Below the pieces are notes generated by a model that searched no databases, was not told the DNA's origin, and was given only the letters and a program-made list of their open reading frames with translations. This document shows positions 41,885 through 63,271 of a stretch of DNA of 64,000 nucleotides, one piece after another. This DNA comes from Marilutibacter penaei (GTDB taxonomy: Bacteria; Pseudomonadota; Gammaproteobacteria; Xanthomonadales; Xanthomonadaceae): NCBI RefSeq assembly GCF_014145395.1, contig NZ_JACHTE010000010.1, positions 1 to 64,000 on the forward strand. The letters run 5' to 3'. Each line of letters starts with the position of its first letter. The first letter of the stretch is position 1. The translations under genes were made by a program, and so were the position numbers.

Positions 41885-42117
41885 ACGCCCCCGTGCAGCA
41901 CCGCGTGGTGTTCGACTTCGAGATCGACTTCAGCAACGGCGGTGGCCTGCAGGGCCAGGGCTTCCGCCTCGACATCGAGGGCGACACCATCGACGACGAT
42001 GCGCTCGCCGACTACCTCGTCCGCGACCTCCGCCTGCTGATGGTCGGCGAGGTCCGCATCCTCGACAAACGCATCATTTGCGAGGCGCACAAGCGGGTGG
42101 GCGGCGAAACCGGCTGA
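41881..42117 (+). CDS. small acidic protein of unknown function
   Basis: A 78-residue soluble protein, rich in Asp/Glu, with FDFEIDFSNGGGLQGQGFRL and LADYLVRDLRLLMVGEVRIL. The ATG overlaps the EamA stop (ATGA), so translation is coupled and the product is probably made together with the exporter. I do not recognise a named family. Confidence 0.75.
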   Translation: MNAPVQHRVVFDFEIDFSNGGGLQGQGFRLDIEGDTIDDDALADYLVRDLRLLMVGEVRILDKRIICEAHKRVGGETG

Positions 42118-42211
42118 AGCAGGCGCGCCCCCTCCGCGGGGCCGCGGCTGGACATCGGCATGCACGATCAGGAACAGTCGGGTCCGGTCCCTGTCCCCTG
42201 GAGGCGTGTCC

Positions 42212-42562
42212 ATGAAGGTCCGCCGCATCGTGTCGAACATCGCCGCCTCCGACACCGCCGCGGGGCGCGCGTTCTACGGCGACCTGCTGGGCCTCGAGAC
42301 ACTGATGGACCACGGCTGGATCGCGACCTGCGGCTCGGGGGAATCGGCGCGCGTGCAGCTCAGCATCGCGACCGAAGGTGGCAATGGGACACCCGTGCCG
42401 GACCTGTCGATCGAAGTCGACGACCTCGACGAAGCCCTGGCCCGCATGCGCGCGGCCGGCCATCCCATCGTCTACGGCCCGGCCGATGAAGACTGGGGCG
42501 TCCGGCGCTTTTACGTCCGCGATCCCTACGGCACCCTGCTCAACATCCTCCAGCACGCCTGA
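42212..42562 (+). CDS. VOC/glyoxalase-superfamily protein
   Basis: A 116-residue vicinal-oxygen-chelate fold protein: VRRIVSNIAASDTAAGRAFYGDLLGLE in the first module and DDLDEALARMRAAGHPIVYGPADEDWGVRRFYVRDPYGTLLNILQH in the second, typical of glyoxalase/bleomycin-resistance-like proteins. GGAGG at 42200-42204 selects ATG 42212 over GTG 42206. Substrate unknown. Confidence 0.88.
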   Translation: MKVRRIVSNIAASDTAAGRAFYGDLLGLETLMDHGWIATCGSGESARVQLSIATEGGNGTPVPDLSIEVDDLDEALARMRAAGHPIVYGPADEDWGVRRFYVRDPYGTLLNILQHA

Positions 42563-42666
42563 GCAGCCGCCTGCTGCCCCGCATCTCTGGCGAGCAGGTA
42601 TGCATGGAGCGCAGCAACGGGTCTTTGCGCATCCTGTCGGTAATCCACCCCGCCCGTACCCGCGCC

Positions 42667-42697
42667 GTCACCTATCGGGTGCCGCTGTTCGGCGAGG
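42667..42697 (+). repeat. fragment of an EamA gene
   Basis: Thirty-one bases match 41747-41777 inside the second EamA gene with three mismatches, in the same orientation. It reads RAVTYRVPLFGE against AATVTYLVPLFGV. No other part of the transporter is recognisable around it, so it is probably the relic of a duplicated or deleted EamA gene. Confidence 0.5.
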
Positions 42698-42703
42698 TAA
42701 CGC

Positions 42704-42991
42704 TCAGCCCTTGGCCCATCGGCCGAAGCCGGTCACGGGGCCCAGCTTGATCACGAGCGCCGCCACTGCCAGCGGCCCGAGCGCGGCGAGGGACACGGCC
42801 ATCAGGTCGAGCTTCGCGACGAATGGCTGCGACGGCATGCCGGTCGGCACGAGGTCCCAGAACGGATTGCCGCGTTCGCTGATCGTCAGCGGCCCTGTCG
42901 ACGGCATGCCGAGCGCGACGGTTGCCAGGACCATCGCGATCCAGACAAGTGCACAGATGCCCAGTGCCCTGGGGCTGGCCTTGAGTTTCAT
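42704..42991 (-). CDS. small membrane protein of unknown function
   Basis: A 95-residue protein with two predicted helices (about residues 10-30 and 65-85) separated by a polar loop LTISERGNPFWDLVPTGM. A GAGGGAG site about nine bases ahead of ATG 42991 supports translation. A perfect palindrome GGAGACGTCTCC (42993-43004) covers part of that site. No family recognised. Confidence 0.65.
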   Translation of the reverse strand: MKLKASPRALGICALVWIAMVLATVALGMPSTGPLTISERGNPFWDLVPTGMPSQPFVAKLDLMAVSLAALGPLAVAALVIKLGPVTGFGRWAKG

Positions 42992-43114
42992 TGGAGACGT
43001 CTCCCTCGAGTGCGGCGGCGGGCGGGGCCCACTGGAATCTACCCGAGTATAGGCATGGCCCGCAGGGGCCGGCTTTGCCGATCAGGCGCGCTCGTGCGCG
43101 ACGGGCGGAAGCGG

Positions 43115-43468
43115 ATGGCCACCGCGATCGGTGGCCTCGTGCGCGAGGTCGCCGATCTGGCGCATGAAGTCCGCGACTTGAAACGCGAGGTCGGCGACTT
43201 CGCGCGTGAAGTCGACGACGTGACGCGCGATGTCGATGACCGGGTGCGCCAAGTCGCGGATATGAAGCGCGAAGTCAGCGACTTGGCGCACGAAGTCGCG
43301 GACATGATGCGCGAAGTCGCTGACCTGGCACGTGAGATCGTGGACATGGCGCGTGAAGTCGTAGACCTCGCGTATGAAGTCGCCGACACCGGCCTTCGCG
43401 AACATGAATGGGGTGGCTGGGCGGCCTGTTGCCGGCACGCGCCACGGCCCGCCCTGTCACCCCCCTGA
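43115..43468 (+). CDS. predicted coiled-coil heptad-repeat protein
   Basis: A possible 117-residue protein made almost wholly of twelve exact heptads of the type L-A-R-E-V-x-D, with Leu/Met/Phe and Val at the a and d positions of a coiled coil, coded by the 21-bp array at 43145-43390. The opposite strand is also open (43082-43438) and codes heptads of the type D-F-x-R-x-V, because the unit is near-palindromic. The plus frame is preferred only for its ATG with a nearby GGCGGAA. Whether either strand is translated is uncertain. Confidence 0.35.
   Translation: MATAIGGLVREVADLAHEVRDLKREVGDFAREVDDVTRDVDDRVRQVADMKREVSDLAHEVADMMREVADLAREIVDMAREVVDLAYEVADTGLREHEWGGWAACCRHAPRPALSPP
43145..43390. repeat. 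array A of 21-bp near-palindromic repeats (12 units)
   Basis: Twelve units of exactly 21 bases without a single indel. Each is a 15-bp core close to GAAGTC-NNN-GACTTC, which is its own reverse complement, followed by a 6-bp GC-rich spacer often containing GCGC. First core 43145-43159, last 43376-43390. Units differ at several positions, mostly keeping GTC and GAC. A second array of the same design lies at 50306-50530. Confidence 0.88.
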
Positions 43469-43571
43469 AACGCCCCGTCCCCACACTCGCGCGTTTGCGC
43501 AACAGGCCTGCGGGTGGCGGGGGAACGGCGTGGCGGATCCGGGACGTGCGGGAGGGGTGCGGAGCGAGGCC

Positions 43572-44162
43572 ATGGACGACATGGCGCGGACGCGCTGGTT
43601 CGCCCTCCACGTGCTGCCGCACGAGCCGGCGCTGCGCGCGTGGCTGGGGCGGCGGCGCAGTGCGGGCTTCGACGTGGACGACATCGTCCAGGAGAGCTAC
43701 GCGATCCTGGCCGAGCGCGAGCGGCTGGACGACATCCTCAACCCGCGCGCCTACCTGTTCCAGGTGGCGCAGTCGCTGGTGGTCCGCAACATCCGCCGGG
43801 CGCGAATCGTGCCGATCCTGGCGGTCGAGGACCTCGGGCCGGTGGAGTTCGTCGATGGCGGGGCCACGCCCGAGCAGCGGGCGATCGAACGCGACGAGCT
43901 GCACGGGCTGGCGGAGGTGATCGCCGCGATGCCAGGGCGGACCCGCGAGGCTTTCGTGCTGCGGCGCGTGCACGAGCTGCCGCAGCGGGAGATCGCCACC
44001 CGCATGGGGGTGTCCGAGAACACCGTCGAGAAACACATCGCCCGCGGCATCCGACTGCTGGGCGAGTGGGTGGCGAATGGCGGAACGCTGCCCGCCAAAG
44101 CCTCAAGGCAGTTGGAGCGTGAAATCAGGAAAGCCAATGGACGGACGCGAAACCAGTCGTGA
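43572..44162 (+). CDS. FecI-type ECF sigma factor
   Basis: A 196-residue ECF sigma factor: region 2 at residues about 10-75 (RAWLGRRRSAGFDVDDIVQESYAIL) and region 4 at about 115-175 (MPGRTREAFVLRRVHELPQREIATRMGVSENTVEKHIARGI), the latter typical of iron-starvation-type FecI sigmas. It overlaps fecR by 26 bases, so regulator and anti-sigma factor are coupled. TGTCA (43455-43459) and CCGTC (43475-43479) upstream resemble a FecI-type promoter; this is weak evidence. Confidence 0.92.
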   Translation: MDDMARTRWFALHVLPHEPALRAWLGRRRSAGFDVDDIVQESYAILAERERLDDILNPRAYLFQVAQSLVVRNIRRARIVPILAVEDLGPVEFVDGGATPEQRAIERDELHGLAEVIAAMPGRTREAFVLRRVHELPQREIATRMGVSENTVEKHIARGIRLLGEWVANGGTLPAKASRQLEREIRKANGRTRNQS

Positions 44163-45141
44163 GATCGAGCGCGCGGCCACGCAGTGGGTCGCGCGGATGG
44201 ACCGTGCGCCGCTGTCGCACCGGGACGAGGCGCGCCTGCAGCGCTGGCTGGCCGGCGATGCGCGGCGCGCCGGCGCCCTGATGCGTGCCAAGGCCCTGTG
44301 GCACCAGGCCCGCGCGCTGCAGGGGACCGGGCAGTTGCATGCACTGGCCGCACCGCCGTCGCGGACGCCGGTCCAGGTTCCCGCGTCGCCCCGGCGTCGG
44401 GCGGGTAGGGGGCTGCGGCCGCTGCGCTGGGCCAGCGCGCTGGCGGCGTCGCTGGTGCTCACGGTCTTCCTGCTGCTCACCGTGCAGGTGCCGGCGGCGT
44501 ACGCCACCACCAAGGGCGAGATGCGCCGGGTCGCGCTCGCGGGGGGATCGGTGCTGACCCTCAACACCGACACCCGGGTGAAGGTGCACGACGACGACGG
44601 CCAGCTGCGCGTCGCGGTCGAGCGTGGCGAGGTGTTCATCGACGCGCGCAATGCCCGGCCGGACCTCGTGGTGGAAGTGGACCGGCGCCGGATGACGGCG
44701 CGCAATGCGACCCTGCTGGTGCGGAAACTGGACGGCGAGCCCACCCATGTGTCCGTCGAGACGGGTGCGTTGGAGATCCCCGCGACCAGGACCACCGTGG
44801 CCGCGGCGACCCGCCTGTTGCTTCGCGACGGTCCCGACGGCCTGCAGCTGAGCCCCCTGCCGTCGGGCCAGCTGCAGCGCGAGATGGCCTGGCGCGAAGG
44901 CAAGATCGCCTTCGAGGGCGAGACCCTCGCCGAGGCCGTCGCGGATTTCGCGCGCTACAGCGACCTGCGCATCGACATCATCGACAACGGCCTGGCGCAG
45001 ATGCCGATCACCGGCCTGTTCGATGCGAACGACCCGGAAGGCTTCGGCAATGCCGTCGCGCAGGTGTTCGACGCCGATGCACGCCGCGAGCGCGACCGCG
45101 TCGTGCTGTCGCGCCCGGTCGAGCCTGTGCGCACGCATTAA
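44137..45141 (+). CDS. FecR-type anti-sigma factor
   Basis: A 334-residue membrane regulator: N-terminal cytoplasmic DUF4880-like part (AATQWVARMDRAPLSHRDEARLQRWLAGDARRAGAL), one membrane helix at about residues 100-125, a periplasmic FecR domain (TTKGEMRRVALAGGSVLTLNTDTRVKV) and a C-terminal STN-like domain (AVADFARYSDLRIDI). AGGA about six bases before ATG 44137 selects this start inside the sigma gene. It would hold the sigma factor and respond to the downstream TonB receptor. Confidence 0.93.
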   Translation: MDGRETSREIERAATQWVARMDRAPLSHRDEARLQRWLAGDARRAGALMRAKALWHQARALQGTGQLHALAAPPSRTPVQVPASPRRRAGRGLRPLRWASALAASLVLTVFLLLTVQVPAAYATTKGEMRRVALAGGSVLTLNTDTRVKVHDDDGQLRVAVERGEVFIDARNARPDLVVEVDRRRMTARNATLLVRKLDGEPTHVSVETGALEIPATRTTVAAATRLLLRDGPDGLQLSPLPSGQLQREMAWREGKIAFEGETLAEAVADFARYSDLRIDIIDNGLAQMPITGLFDANDPEGFGNAVAQVFDADARRERDRVVLSRPVEPVRTH

Positions 45142-45231
45142 ATTTTCGTGACAGGGGGCGGAACCCGCGTGCCGGCTGCTCTTTCTTCCTGAGTGCCGCG
45201 ACCCCACGCGGCGACCGAGAGCCGACACCCC

Positions 45232-48200
45232 ATGACGTCCTGCAAGCGACTCCTGTTGACCAGCGCCGTGATCGCCGCGCTGGCCCTTCCTGCCCATGCC
45301 TTCGCGCAGGTGCGCCAGTTCAACGTGCCGGCGCAGCCGGCCGTCACCGCCATCCCGGAACTGGCGCGCCAGGCGCAGTTGCAGATCATCGCGCCGGCCG
45401 GTGCCCTGCAGGGCATCCAGACCCCCGCCGTGTCCGGCGAGATGGACGCGCGCGAGGCGCTGCGCCTGCTGCTGGTCGGCACCGGCCTGGAGATCCAGTC
45501 CGACGAGGGCGGCGTGATCACCCTGCGCGAGAAGTCCGTGTCCGCGCCGGACGCAGAGGCCGGCACCGGCACCGGCACCGGCTTCATCCTCGGCCGCGTG
45601 ATGGATCCGGTGACCGGCGAGTACCTGCGCAACGCGCGGGTCAAGATCGACGGCCGCCAGGTCGCGGTGTCCGGCGAACGCGGCGAGTTCCGCGTCCACG
45701 AGGTGCCGGCCGGCGCCGCGGTGCTGACCGTCGAGTTCACCGGCTTCAGCCCGGTCCAGCAGACCGTCGATGTCCGCGCTGGCCAAACCAGCGAACCGCT
45801 GTTCGAGCTGTACAGCAGCCAGGCCCCCGCGGCGGACGCCGCCACCCTCGACACCGTGCAGGTCGTGGGCGCCCGCGAGGGCGACGCGCGCGCGATCATG
45901 GAGCAGCGCGCGGCGATGAACATCACCAACACGCTGTCCGCGGACAGTTTCGGCGAGATCGGCGACGGCAACCCCGGCGAGTTCCTGAAGTACATGCCGG
46001 GCGTGGACTACGACGTGGTGGCCGACGATGCGCCGCGCAACATCTCGCTGCGCGGCCTGCCGGCCAAGTACACCGGCGTGACGCTCAACGGCGTGAGCCT
46101 GCCCGGCGTGGATGCCAACTCGTCCAGCTCACGCACCTTCAGCTTCGAGCAGTCCGCGCTGGCCGGCGTCGACTCCATCACCGTCTACAAGACCACCAGC
46201 GCGGACATGGATGCCAATGCCCCCGCCGGCACCATCGACATCCGCACCAAGCGCGCCTTCGACGCGCGCGGCCGCCGGATCACCGCGACGCTGGGCGGGA
46301 ACACCCACGCCGGCCTGTGGGACAGCGAGAACACCGGCTGGATGGAAGGCGGTTACGACACCAAGTTCCTGCCGACGGCCACGCTCAACTATTCCGACGT
46401 GTTCCTTGACGGTCGCCTCGGCATTGCCGCCGGCATCAGCAGCGTGACCAGCCTGGTCGAGCAGGCGCAGATCACGGCCGGGCGCAACTACGTGGCCACG
46501 GAGGCCAGCCCGTATCCCTACGCGGTCACTTCGATCTCCGCGGCCGGCTACGACCGCGAGTACAACCGCCGTGTTGCCCAGGTGGCGGTCGACTACAAGG
46601 CCACCGACGAGCTGATCCTGTCGCTGGCCGCCAGCGTCGCCCGCGGCGACATCGACCCGAACCGGATCACCCCGCGACTCGCGAACTCGCGCGCGTCCAC
46701 CGGCGATCCGTCGATGTACTGGACCACGAACTACGCGGACACCGCTCAAACGTTGAGCACCGACGTCACCTACACCTACAAGATCGGCTACACCCGCAAC
46801 CTGGTGCCGAGCTTCGTGTGGCAGAACGAGCACTTCAAGCTCGACGGCAAGCTGTTCCACGTCAGCGCCGACAGCCGCTACGACTCCGGCAAGAAGGGCC
46901 AGGTGTCGGACGTGCTCAACACCATCAGCGCGCCCGGCAACTACAGTGCGTGGCGCAGCGACTGGATGCACCAGGACTGGAAGATCCAGCAGTTGGACGG
47001 TCCGGACTGGTCGCTGCCGGAGAGCTACACCATCGGCAGCTATGCCGGTGCACTCGGCAGTTCCACCCGGCCTTCGATCCGCACCACCAGCGGCAGCAGC
47101 GCCGAGCTCGACTACGACGGTGGCAGCCTCGACTTCGAGTTCTACCAGGACTTCGGCGACGTGCCGGTGACCTGGAAGACCGGCCTCAAGGCAACCCGCG
47201 GCGAGTACGACTTCGGCAACACCTCCGACGCCAACATCTGGACCTACGACGGTCCGCTGAGCAACGCCGAGTTCCTGCGCGCGGTGCAGAGCGCGAACGT
47301 GTGGCACTCGGGCGAGTCGGGCATGGTCGTCAATACGCTGGGCGGCGGCGACCTGTACGTCTACAGCCTGGAGAAGATCTACGACATGATGCAGGCGAAC
47401 CCGGAGCACTGGCTGCACAGCCTGACGCCGGCCCAGTGGTACAACGCCTACGTGGGCAATGTCAGTGCGCTGGACGAGGACGTCCAGTCCGCCTATTTCA
47501 TGGGCACCGCGGAGTTCGCCTACAAGTTGAAGGTGCAGGCGGGCCTGCGCTGGGAACGTACCCGGACCACCAGCCACGACTTCGACCCGCTGAGCCCGGA
47601 GGCGATCGCCGCCGCGGGTTACGACGTCGACCCCGACAGCGGCCGTGCCACCACCGTCGAAGGGCTGGAGTACCAGTACTTCACCAACCCGCGCCGCGAG
47701 AACAAGGCGAGTTACGACGACTTCTTCCCGAGCGTCTCGCTGAAGTACAGCATCAGCGACGGCTTCGACGTGCAGGCGGGTTACAGCAAGACCATCCAGC
47801 GCCCCGAAGTGGGCGACCTGGCGGGCGTGTGGTCGGTGGCGTATGGCACCGAGGACGGCAACGTGCTCTCAGCCCCCAACGCCGACCTGCTCCCCGAGTA
47901 CTCCGACAACCTGTCGCTGCGGGTGGTGAAGTACTTCGAACCGGTCGGCCTGGTGGCGTTCGGCGTGTTCCACAACCGCATCGAGGACCTGATCAGCGAT
48001 GTTTCGATGACGCCCGAGGAATTCGGCTACACCGGCGACGAGCCCATCGACCTGGTGAATACGCGCAGCAACCTGTCCGATGACATCACCATCAACGGCT
48101 ATGAGTTCGAGTTCAACCACGCCATGGATTACCTGCCGGGCGCGCTGAGTGGCCTGACGGTGCGCGGTTCCTACACCCATACCAATCCGTCGGTGGTGCT

Positions 48201-48588
48201 GCCGCGCGTGGCGCAGCAGGTGGCCAACCTGGGGTTCGCATGGCGCCACGGCCGCACGCGACTGAACCTCAACACCGTCTGGAGCGACGAGAAGGACCGC
48301 GGCCTGACCGGCAACATCACCAACGCGTTCGGCGTGGTGATGAACCAGAAGCAGCCCTTCGACGACTACCTGGAAGTGAACCTGTCCGGTGCCTACACCC
48401 TGATCCCGAAGACCCCGGGCAACTGGCTCGGGCTGGAGGCGTACTTCAGCGCCAACAACATCTTCAACCAGAACCGCCACACCGTGTACTCGAACGGCGA
48501 AACGGGATTGAGCGAGAAGGGCCACCACAGCCAGATCTACATCACCAGCGGACGTCGCGCTTCGATCGGCCTGCGCGCCCGGTTCTGA
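45232..48588 (+). CDS. TonB-dependent receptor with N-terminal STN signalling domain
   Basis: A 1118-residue transducer-type receptor. Signal peptide (about 1-26); STN domain (about 45-100, PELARQAQLQIIAPAGALQG) that contacts FecR; a carboxypeptidase-regulatory-like domain (about 115-190, ILGRVMDPVTGEYLRNARV); a plug (NPGEFLKYMPGVDYD; ISLRGLPAKYTGVTLNGVSL); and a large barrel ending GLRARF. The size and the extra domain match receptors for bulky substrates in Xanthomonadaceae. The downstream Tat-exported PhoD suggests an organophosphate ligand. Confidence 0.93.
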   Translation: MTSCKRLLLTSAVIAALALPAHAFAQVRQFNVPAQPAVTAIPELARQAQLQIIAPAGALQGIQTPAVSGEMDAREALRLLLVGTGLEIQSDEGGVITLREKSVSAPDAEAGTGTGTGFILGRVMDPVTGEYLRNARVKIDGRQVAVSGERGEFRVHEVPAGAAVLTVEFTGFSPVQQTVDVRAGQTSEPLFELYSSQAPAADAATLDTVQVVGAREGDARAIMEQRAAMNITNTLSADSFGEIGDGNPGEFLKYMPGVDYDVVADDAPRNISLRGLPAKYTGVTLNGVSLPGVDANSSSSRTFSFEQSALAGVDSITVYKTTSADMDANAPAGTIDIRTKRAFDARGRRITATLGGNTHAGLWDSENTGWMEGGYDTKFLPTATLNYSDVFLDGRLGIAAGISSVTSLVEQAQITAGRNYVATEASPYPYAVTSISAAGYDREYNRRVAQVAVDYKATDELILSLAASVARGDIDPNRITPRLANSRASTGDPSMYWTTNYADTAQTLSTDVTYTYKIGYTRNLVPSFVWQNEHFKLDGKLFHVSADSRYDSGKKGQVSDVLNTISAPGNYSAWRSDWMHQDWKIQQLDGPDWSLPESYTIGSYAGALGSSTRPSIRTTSGSSAELDYDGGSLDFEFYQDFGDVPVTWKTGLKATRGEYDFGNTSDANIWTYDGPLSNAEFLRAVQSANVWHSGESGMVVNTLGGGDLYVYSLEKIYDMMQANPEHWLHSLTPAQWYNAYVGNVSALDEDVQSAYFMGTAEFAYKLKVQAGLRWERTRTTSHDFDPLSPEAIAAAGYDVDPDSGRATTVEGLEYQYFTNPRRENKASYDDFFPSVSLKYSISDGFDVQAGYSKTIQRPEVGDLAGVWSVAYGTEDGNVLSAPNADLLPEYSDNLSLRVVKYFEPVGLVAFGVFHNRIEDLISDVSMTPEEFGYTGDEPIDLVNTRSNLSDDITINGYEFEFNHAMDYLPGALSGLTVRGSYTHTNPSVVLPRVAQQVANLGFAWRHGRTRLNLNTVWSDEKDRGLTGNITNAFGVVMNQKQPFDDYLEVNLSGAYTLIPKTPGNWLGLEAYFSANNIFNQNRHTVYSNGETGLSEKGHHSQIYITSGRRASIGLRARF

Positions 48589-48648
48589 CCGCCTGCCGTC
48601 GCGGCCGGCACCTGGCCGGCCGTCCACACCCCTACTGCAAGGTGCTGC

Positions 48649-50253
48649 ATGACGTCCTCCGTATCCTTCGATCGCCGCCGCTTCCTGCTCGGCGCCGGTT
48701 CGCTGGCGCTGTTCGCCGGCCTCTCACCGTTCCACCGGGTCGTCGCGAACCCGCGCCTGGGCGGCTATCCCTTCACCCTGGGCGTCGCCTCGGGCGATCC
48801 GCTGCCAGGCGGCTTCGTGCTGTGGACGCGGCTGGCGCCGAAGCCGCTTGAAGAACACGGCGGCATGCCGATGGTGGCGGTGCCGGTGCGCTGGGAGCTG
48901 GCGGCCGACGATGGCTTCCGCCGCGTCCTGCGCCGGGGCGAGACGCTGGCCCTGCCTGAGCTGGGGCACAGCGTGCATGTCGAGCTGGACGGGCTCGCAC
49001 CGGGCCGGCCGTACTGGTACCGCTTCCACGTCGAAGGCGCGGATGCGAGCCCGGTCGGGGTGGTCCGCACCGCGCCGGCGCCGGACGCCCTGCCGGAGCG
49101 CGTGCGCATCGCGGTGGCCGGTTGCCAGGCCTACTACCACGGCTGGTTCGAGGCCTATCGCCACCTGAGCGAAGAGGACGGCCTGGACGCGGTGTTCCAC
49201 TACGGCGATTACATCTACGAGGGGCCGGCCGGCCGCAAGAAGGACCAGTTCCCGACATACGACGCCGCAGGTCGGCTGGTCGCCGAGCGTGACCACGTCG
49301 GCGACGAAATCTACTCGCTCGACGACTACCGCCGGCGCTATGCGCTGTACAAGAGCGACCCGGACCTGCAGGCGGCGCATGCGGCCGCGGCCTTCGTGAT
49401 GTCCTTCGACGACCACGAGATCGACAACGACTGGAACAATGCCCGGGACCAGGACGGGCGGGCGCCCGAAGTGTTCGCGCTGCGCAAGTTCGTCGCCATG
49501 CAGGCCTGGTACGAAAACCTGCCGGTGCGGCGCGCGCTGCTCCCCCGTGTGGATGGCGGGACGCGCTATTACCGCCGGCTCGACTTCGGGCGACTGCTGC
49601 GCATGCACGTGCTGGATACCCGCAGCCATCGCCTCAACCAGGCCTGCGAGCCGCCGGCATCGCCGGGTTGCCGGTTCCAGCCGGGCCAGCCGTCCAGCAT
49701 CCTGGGCGACGCCCAGGAGGCCTGGCTGGACCAGGGCCTGGACAACGACGCCGGCTGGAACCTCATCGCCCAGCAGGTGTTCGTGATGCCGCTGAAGGCG
49801 AAGAACGCGGACGGCACGCTGCGGGAGTTCGACGACAAGTGGGACGGCTTCCCGCAGTCGCGCCAGCGCCTGGTCCACTCGATCCGCGAGCGCGGGTTGA
49901 CCAACGTGGTCGTCGCGACCGGCGACGCGCACATGAATGCCATCGGCGACATCCCGCTGAGCGACGAAGCGCCGGAGGGTCCGGCGGTGGCCGCGGAGTT
50001 CCTGGCCACCTCCATCTCGTCCAATGGCGATGGCGCTGTGGACTCGCCCAACGCGACCCGCTTCCTGCACGGCGAGAACCCCTTCCTGCAGTCATGCGAC
50101 AACCTGCGCGGCTACCACCTGCACGACATCACCGCGAAGGAGTGGCGGACCGACGTGCGCGCGATGGACCAGGTGCAGCGCAAGGGCGGCCGGATCCGCA
50201 CCCACGAACGCTTCTTCGTCACCCCGGACCGGGCAGGCCTGCAGCGGGGCTGA
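48649..50253 (+). CDS. phoD: PhoD-type alkaline phosphatase/phosphodiesterase, Tat-exported
   Basis: A 534-residue enzyme. Twin-arginine signal DRRRFLLGAGSLALFAG, an N-terminal PhoD domain (GYPFTLGVASGDPLPGGFVLWTRLAP), then the metal-dependent catalytic domain with AGCQAYYHG, FHYGDYIYE, SFDDHEIDNDW and VVATGDAHMNAIGD, the ligand set of PhoD (Ca/Fe centre). PhoD acts on phosphate mono- and diesters in the periplasm or outside. It follows the receptor by 60 bases and is probably in the same operon. Confidence 0.93.
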   Translation: MTSSVSFDRRRFLLGAGSLALFAGLSPFHRVVANPRLGGYPFTLGVASGDPLPGGFVLWTRLAPKPLEEHGGMPMVAVPVRWELAADDGFRRVLRRGETLALPELGHSVHVELDGLAPGRPYWYRFHVEGADASPVGVVRTAPAPDALPERVRIAVAGCQAYYHGWFEAYRHLSEEDGLDAVFHYGDYIYEGPAGRKKDQFPTYDAAGRLVAERDHVGDEIYSLDDYRRRYALYKSDPDLQAAHAAAAFVMSFDDHEIDNDWNNARDQDGRAPEVFALRKFVAMQAWYENLPVRRALLPRVDGGTRYYRRLDFGRLLRMHVLDTRSHRLNQACEPPASPGCRFQPGQPSSILGDAQEAWLDQGLDNDAGWNLIAQQVFVMPLKAKNADGTLREFDDKWDGFPQSRQRLVHSIRERGLTNVVVATGDAHMNAIGDIPLSDEAPEGPAVAAEFLATSISSNGDGAVDSPNATRFLHGENPFLQSCDNLRGYHLHDITAKEWRTDVRAMDQVQRKGGRIRTHERFFVTPDRAGLQRG

Positions 50254-50305
50254 GGCGGGACGGCACAGAAGATGCGGCGATCATGCAGACATCTCCTTAC
50301 AAAAT

Positions 50306-50530
50306 GAGGTCCCGAACCTCGTGCGAGGGGTTCCTGACCTCATCGATGGCGTTGCGAACCGTGTGATTGAGGTCGCGGACCCTTTCATCGGGGTCCTGCA
50401 CCTCGGCGATCAGGTTGCGGACCCTGCCGTCCGCGTCTTCGACCACGTGCGTGGCGTCAGGCGTCTCGCGGATGGGGCCGCGGACCTCGTGGGTCGGGCC
50501 CGGGACGGCGTGAGAGAGGTGCGGCGCCTC
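50306..50530. repeat. array B of 21-bp near-palindromic repeats (11 units)
   Basis: Eleven indel-free 21-base units, each with a 15-bp core close to GAGGTC-NNN-GACCTC and a 6-bp spacer; first core 50306-50320, last 50516-50530. It has the same architecture as array A but is more diverged. The plus strand reads heptads such as NEVPNLV-RGVPDLI, the minus strand HEVRDL-type heptads, but neither has a nearby start codon in frame, so it looks non-coding or decayed. It fills most of the 378-base gap 50254-50631; nothing else was seen there. Confidence 0.85.
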
Positions 50531-50631
50531 GGCATGACGCTGGCGGGATGGATACGGCGGGACGCATCCACCACGTCCGTCCGAGGGCAGGAATGCCGAC
50601 CTGCCGTCTGGCCGCCAAGCCGCAAGCGCCC

Positions 50632-62745: not shown

Positions 62746-62783
62746 GCGCCGCTTCAGAGGCGGTCGCTTCAGATGCGGTGGCT

Positions 62784-63271
62784 TCAGATGCGTGAGTACC
62801 GCCAGGACACCATGCGGCCGTCGCGGTAGGGCATGACCCCGTGGAACGGCCGGGGGTCCTCGTCGAACACCATGGGCAGGAAATGCCGGTCGCCTTCCCA
62901 CATGGGCAGGTCCGGCAGACGCGCGATAGGCACCCATTCAAGCGTGCCTTCCGGGTTGCGCTCGAACGGCGTGCCGGTGAAGGCCGTGATGGTGAAGATG
63001 AAGCCCAGCCAGTCCTCGCCGTGCTTGCCGAAGCCGGGCCAGCTGACGCTGCCGCGCAGTTGCATCGCCTGGCAATCGATGCCCGCCTCCTCGTGGATCT
63101 CGCGACGCATGCCGGCGACGATGTCCTCGTCCGCTTCGAGCTTGCCGCCCAGCCCGTTGTATTTGCCGAGCTGGTGGTCCTCGGGACGCGCGTTGCGGTG
63201 GACCATCAGCACTTCGCCGCGGTCGGGCGAGAGCACGAAGCCCAGCGTGGCGACGATCGGCGTGTACGGCA

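Follow-up and report, generated by a model that had tools for sequence, protein, structure and literature searches.

Two-way reading of a 21-bp tandem array

In the stretch of Marilutibacter penaei DNA analysed here (the window, 64,000 nucleotides), a run of short near-palindromic units raises the question of whether it is read as protein or as DNA. An initial annotation left three options, namely a coiled-coil gene, coding on both strands, or a multi-site DNA-binding platform. The feature in question is:

43145 to 43396, no strand assigned: array 1, twelve 21-bp units, each a core of approximately GARGTC-NNN-GACYTG/C plus a 6-bp spacer

The twelve contiguous units without indel, each with a 15-bp near-palindromic core and a 6-bp spacer, are borne out by our analysis. 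The units had also been called exact, which holds for their length (all 21 bp) but not for their letters, as 59 of 252 positions deviate from the array's own consensus. Tandem Repeats Finder places the repeat at 43141-43388 (period 21, 11.8 copies, 65% match) and scores an 84-bp order of four units above the 21-bp period (225 vs 125). The lag-21 identity is 0.649 compared with 0.267 ± 0.028 after shuffling (2000 shuffles, z 13.4), which makes array 1 the top 21-bp periodicity of the window, with the runner-up at 50283-50534 (0.502), where a second array lies (array 2 below). Variation between the columns of the unit is strongly non-uniform (p = 1.3e-5), with columns 2, 5, 6, 10, and 11 invariant, and the variability is symmetric around the core centre (95th percentile among possible axes). 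Taken alone, the 21-bp consensus of array 1 pairs at 7 of 10 positions as a palindrome, which is not significant (shuffle p 0.23). A CRISPR array was ruled out, the units being contiguous 21-bp repeats with varying cores instead of near-identical repeats with unique spacers. Elsewhere in the window a 15-bp tandem repeat is present at 62750-62792 (2.9 copies, 92% match).

Further arrays in the same genome and in relatives

A search for the repeat in the genome and its relatives, as the initial annotation had recommended, gave two more arrays in the same genome and others in relatives. Both of the former were reached through a protein-level search: array 2, which had escaped the initial annotation, and a third array on contig 8 (339877-340143). 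The features in the window are:

50306 to 50536, minus strand: array 2, eleven decayed 21-bp units of the GAGGTC-NNN-GACCTC type, reading outward
50270 to 50305, minus strand: conserved head A, past the last unit of array 2, including ATTTTGTAAGGAGATGTCTGCATGATC and common to arrays in other genomes

Additional arrays are present in the genus relatives G003 and G005, and a pattern search of the remaining four genus relatives returned scattered single matches or nothing. A subtype model, R1, matches 11 of 247 genomes of the same family, among which G121 yielded no array. At E <= 1e-8 the profile R2, which covers four units, matches 18 of the 395 family genomes, spread over 11 of 54 genera; two of these genomes (G044 and G141) lack an array according to the unit scanner, leaving 16 genomes in 9 genera. 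When R2 was applied to a phylum sample, 62 of 397 genomes matched at E <= 1e-4, and of the 29 phylum-sample loci fetched, the 27 from outside the family held no array of this type. Nearly all arrays of the R1/R2 type have a period of 21; L175/L053 and L179 show 1-bp shifts. When a made-up consensus peptide was scanned against named genomes, the one match, a chance one, fell in a chemotaxis protein. Two other repeats were noticed along the way, a GTC-rich 21-bp repeat inside a gene of another proteobacterium (L100, 1331-1687, EVVVVET), which is unrelated to the arrays, and, in a genus relative, a strong periodicity of 7 bp (0.72; L095, 9100-10150).

A protein family beside the arrays

Within the set of array loci, the only BLAST match of array 1 outside its own genome is the L046 array of a genus relative, which sits 1.35 kb downstream of a gene that we call X. 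BLAST between the array loci also places this gene beside the arrays of L156, L165, L169, L175, and L176. X is an unlisted family of helical proteins of approximately 155 amino acids, with up to 10 copies per genome. No match was obtained in Pfam below E 0.07 (three X proteins), in NCBIfam (two), in PHROGs (three) or in PADLOC. The X proteins are acidic (pI 4.9-6.6, six proteins), and the fold model (pLDDT 91) contains one 57-residue helix and has no match at E <= 0.001 among the solved or viral structures listed; the rows returned for X by VIA-align were discarded as long-helix look-alikes.

X was present in 16 of the 30 genomes searched, that is in 13 of 15 array-bearing genomes against 3 of 15 others (p 0.0007), in a set that was hand-chosen, not random, and in which G044, G141, and G121 are doubtful among the 15 array-bearing genomes. 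The X profile matches 2 of 398 phylum-sample genomes, both from the same family as our genome, which itself holds six X genes by profile, one of them weak. Proteins similar to X presumably occur in Bacteroidota as well. Phage or plasmid mobile DNA was rejected as an origin: array 1 has no phage match and a sole plasmid match of 41 bp at chance level, X is absent from plasmids (two X queries) and phages (one X query), and 28 pattern matches for X in viral contigs gave zero confirmed cases.

The X genes of L165, L169, L156, L175, L176, and L046 were found via nearby arrays, and we therefore counted separately the 29 X genes that came from X searches alone. An array with a strict period of 20-22 bp lies at most 700 bp from 22 of these 29 genes, downstream in 18 cases and upstream in 4. 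Among all X genes the same test is positive for 27 of 35, compared with 2 of 137 control stretches (six loci); the X gene of L046 has no array within 700 bp. Flank periodicity reaches 0.5 for 24 of the 29 independently found genes, and when any period from 5 to 60 is allowed it does so for 29 of 35 X flanks compared with 31 of 282 controls, where the periods are scattered. With a looser cut (0.48), arrays are scored downstream of 24 of 35 X genes and 18 of 251 control genes, and upstream of 5 of 35 and 13 of 244, respectively. The gap between the stop codon of X and a downstream array is 14-322 bp (22 arrays). A class of approximately 21-bp palindrome arrays linked to X is well supported. Unit length in this class is constrained, since 24 of the 29 periodic X flanks belong to the 21-bp series (7, 14, 21, or 42) and the rest have periods of 20 (one; L201), 22 (three; L207, L209, and L218) or 43 (one; L195), while the cores vary widely, as illustrated by AGCCAAACGCTGGG, CGCTGACACTTTCAGCG, and CATTCCGGAATG.

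Both arrays of the window consist of tandem units with period 21, and neither has an X gene within 700 bp. As the window contains no X (tblastn, E 1e-3), we call them orphan arrays and place them in the class by array type, and array 2 also by head A. The array of L156, in another genus, is the closest to both array 2 and the contig-8 array (0.69 and 0.79), and all three share head A; array 1 shows weak similarity to several arrays (best 0.47). Membership in the X-associated class is very probable for array 2 and, somewhat less firmly, probable for array 1. For 13 orphans the set includes an X-linked array from the same genome, and for 5 of the 13 such an array is the best match, compared with 1.02 after permuting the labels (4 of 5000 permutations as high); the three orphans of our genome are not among the five. 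The 5-mer content of the arrays follows the distance between X proteins (Mantel r 0.27 over 25 arrays, a value reached in 11 of 5000 permutations), a co-divergence that could stem from shared descent.

The open frames are not under codon constraint

The heptads described in the initial annotation fit the letters on both strands, and the E-V frames are open in either direction:

43010 to 43468, plus strand: open frame through array 1 with E-V-x-D-L heptads, judged not to be a gene
43082 to 43438, minus strand: open frame through array 1 on the opposite strand, judged not to be a gene

Three of the six frames are stop-free within array 1, at least one of six is open in all 53 arrays, and a codon-score finder calls an ORF across 13 of 29 arrays; in addition there are weak coiled-coil matches. 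X-linked arrays have an open frame in 27 of 27 cases compared with 22.6 in column-permuted copies (1 of 200 permutations as high), and they contain 212 stops in total compared with 284 ± 10, a deficit that may be caused by joint inheritance of neighbouring letters. All this would fit an array that encodes coiled-coil heptads in a repeat protein, on one or both strands. Against it stands the comparison of orthologous arrays, where the differences spread over all three codon positions (28/13/24, 15/19/20, 12/13/11, and 16/14/21 at positions 1/2/3), with 76 of 206 at third positions in four overlapping comparisons and no clear excess. Codon positions are unconstrained in these arrays, and selection at the protein level finds no support. 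Furthermore, related arrays have periods of 20, 22, and 43 bp, which break the frame, and a few 1-bp shifts, and stop avoidance in the E-V frames of 26 orphan arrays does not exceed what the column make-up predicts (3 vs 4.6 on the plus strand and 7 vs 8.1 on the minus strand). Neither the coiled-coil gene nor the double-strand coding option of the initial annotation is supported, and we consider coding by the array most improbable. On this reading, 21-bp DNA repeats in a GC-rich genome can produce open frames that look like heptads as a side effect.

Dyad symmetry without compensatory changes

Dyad symmetry of the consensus was evaluated for the 27 X-linked units, 10 of which are singly significant (p < 0.05) and 17 are not, and the pooled result is p = 2e-8. 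The variability is dyad-symmetric as well, with a mean axis percentile of 0.84 in 26 orphans and 0.62 in 27 X-linked arrays where 0.5 is expected. Compensatory changes between the half-sites are absent within arrays (27 vs 29.6 expected, and 39 vs 49.6). A pooled covariation signal (154 two-sided cells vs 95.7 ± 9.4) was rejected, because it is lost when arms are permuted within arrays and the positive count thus reflects differences between arrays. The lack of within-array compensation argues against hairpins and is compatible with two half-sites that are read independently.

It is very unlikely that the arrays act as structured RNA, with the palindromes of a transcribed array forming chains of hairpins. 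Of five array stretches, four have strong predicted folds (z -3.2 to -7.5), which would agree with such a role, but good folding is expected of any tandem palindrome, and the fifth stretch, array 2, reaches a z of -1.3. The window has no Rfam match, and in L156, L160, and L165 a terminator-like hairpin, identified by eye, lies between X and the array. Moreover, arrays occur in every gene orientation: for 29 arrays, a crude codon-score finder gives 7 divergent, 7 convergent, and 14 tandem arrangements of the flanking genes and 1 one-sided case, and these mixed orientations speak against a single promoter or terminator role.

Genomic setting and history of the arrays

Both arrays of the window are located in a larger unit:

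42102 to 50626, no strand assigned: block of 8.5 kb with both window arrays and six genes (glyoxalase-like, hypothetical, sigma factor, FecR, TonB receptor, PhoD)

The block is missing from G001 and G006, where approximately 112-115 bp occupy the site, and G005 has a different short gene there, acetyltransferase-like by eye; the left flank of the block has no alignment in G002. A search of six relatives did not recover the block's sigma factor and PhoD proteins. The contig-8 array is located where synteny with two relatives ends.

One explanation for this distribution is a mobile repeat, where X or another enzyme copies the arrays and the arrays are a moved substrate with no function for the cell, in the manner of transposases that act on REP palindromes. 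The block absent from two genus relatives and the synteny break on contig 8 would be expected from such movement, as would the defined end (head A or B) that is common to dispersed arrays at several loci, and the five of 13 orphans that are closest to an X-linked array of their own genome. Yet X has no transposase match, a clean empty site was not observed for any single array (the block in the window spans 8.5 kb with six genes), and orthologous arrays are stationary, holding their position in three species (L162, L163, and L164) and in two (L160 and L165). We regard the mobile repeat as unlikely.

Neutral growth by slippage or unequal crossing-over, with the link to X arising as a by-product of X spreading together with its flank, would explain that orthologous arrays differ by whole units (21 or 42 bp in clean internal gaps, other length gaps varying with the alignment ends), that every array has its own sequence, that higher orders of 42, 63, or 84 bp appear, and that compensatory changes are absent. 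It accounts poorly for a unit length held at 20-22 bp across unrelated sequences, for the uneven and dyad-symmetric conservation, and for the palindromic consensus, and we find it quite unlikely. The initial annotation had proposed that broken frames and phase in relatives, or no conservation at all, would reveal neutral satellite DNA: frame-breaking periods are indeed found in relatives, but the arrays hold their position from one species to another, which is not what plain neutral satellite DNA predicts.

A proposed DNA platform as the best explanation

The usual seat of the family is beside X genes, which makes a DNA signal or platform a likelier reading of array 1 than a gene. The DNA platform is the option of the initial annotation best left standing, and we place it just below an even chance that array 1 is a non-coding, X-less member of the X-associated class that serves as a multi-site DNA platform. 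A dimeric protein would bind each core as a site of two-fold symmetry, the sites would follow each other at about two helical turns on roughly one face of the DNA, and the array as a whole would form a landing platform whose reader is either the cognate X or a partner of it. Copies of the array may reach new intergenic places and outlast the loss of X. Direct binding of the arrays by X is a guess, because X is acidic and its fold model has no significant match.

Several observations weigh against the platform reading. X matches no family or structure significantly, half-site compensation is not seen within arrays, the window has no X, and the orphans of the genome are not best matched to its own X-linked arrays. 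Arrays also persist where X is truncated: X genes are cut short in two species of one genus, L160 (3914-4000, approximately 18 residues) and L210 (1474-1655, approximately 54 residues), and arrays of matching type survive in both genomes; the array stays in place at L160, and in G770, where the orthologous X is truncated, it is an orphan that persists. Periods of 20 and 22 do not keep exactly one face of the DNA, most X-linked consensus units (17 of 27) are not singly significant palindromes, co-divergence with X is explicable by shared descent, and the ORFs over 13 of 29 arrays and the low number of stops in X-linked arrays compared with permuted copies must be counted here as well.

A wider proposal, which we consider possible but on balance doubtful, is an undescribed two-part chromosomal module of paralogous X genes, each with a private, co-diverging palindrome array of 20-22 bp units, plus orphans. 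X or its partner would then read its own array and the orphans would carry the same address elsewhere, so that the arrays would be sequence-addressed anchoring points spreading between genes. If this is true, an uncharacterised gene family bears its own fast-changing tandem DNA address, in several copies plus orphans per genome, and provides a ready system for the joint evolution of protein-DNA specificity and tandem arrays, as well as a first handle on a protein family with no name or fold found.

Comparison with known systems

The initial annotation knew of no named family for the repeat, which agrees with our limited searches of protein and RNA libraries and of the literature; no paper describing such a module was found in open-access full texts. 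MIRU/VNTR loci are intergenic tandem arrays that change by whole units. The X arrays resemble them in being intergenic tandem repeats with whole-unit changes, and differ in a unit of approximately 21 bp that is kept across unrelated sequences, in their palindromic cores, and in having a partner gene.

By analogy, the nearest systems in layout appear to be REPtrons and ParR-parC partition modules (PMC9426499). In REPtrons, REP elements are accompanied by RAYT transposases so that a protein gene stands beside short palindromes, and, as in the X class, related palindromes are scattered between genes of the same genome (PMC3733652). The X arrays differ from REP elements in their contiguous units at a fixed 20-22 bp and in the GTAG tag that can mark one end of a REP palindrome, which is present in 0 of 53 consensus units (the alternative tag, CGTC, occurs in 18 of 53, within cores such as GACGTC). 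Unlike a REPtron, the X class has array sequences that differ between X subfamilies, and unlike RAYT, X has no tyrosine transposase match in Pfam, NCBIfam, or PHROGs.

ParR-parC arrays form sequence families of differing specificity. The X class departs from these modules in being chromosomal with several copies per genome, and X appears unlike ParR in being acidic and, as judged from its model, in matching no known DNA-binding fold. Common to both is that the gene of a small protein is paired with its own tandem array; for the X class it is the adjacency of gene and array that is shown, and by this analogy the class may be likened to a ParR-parC-like module.
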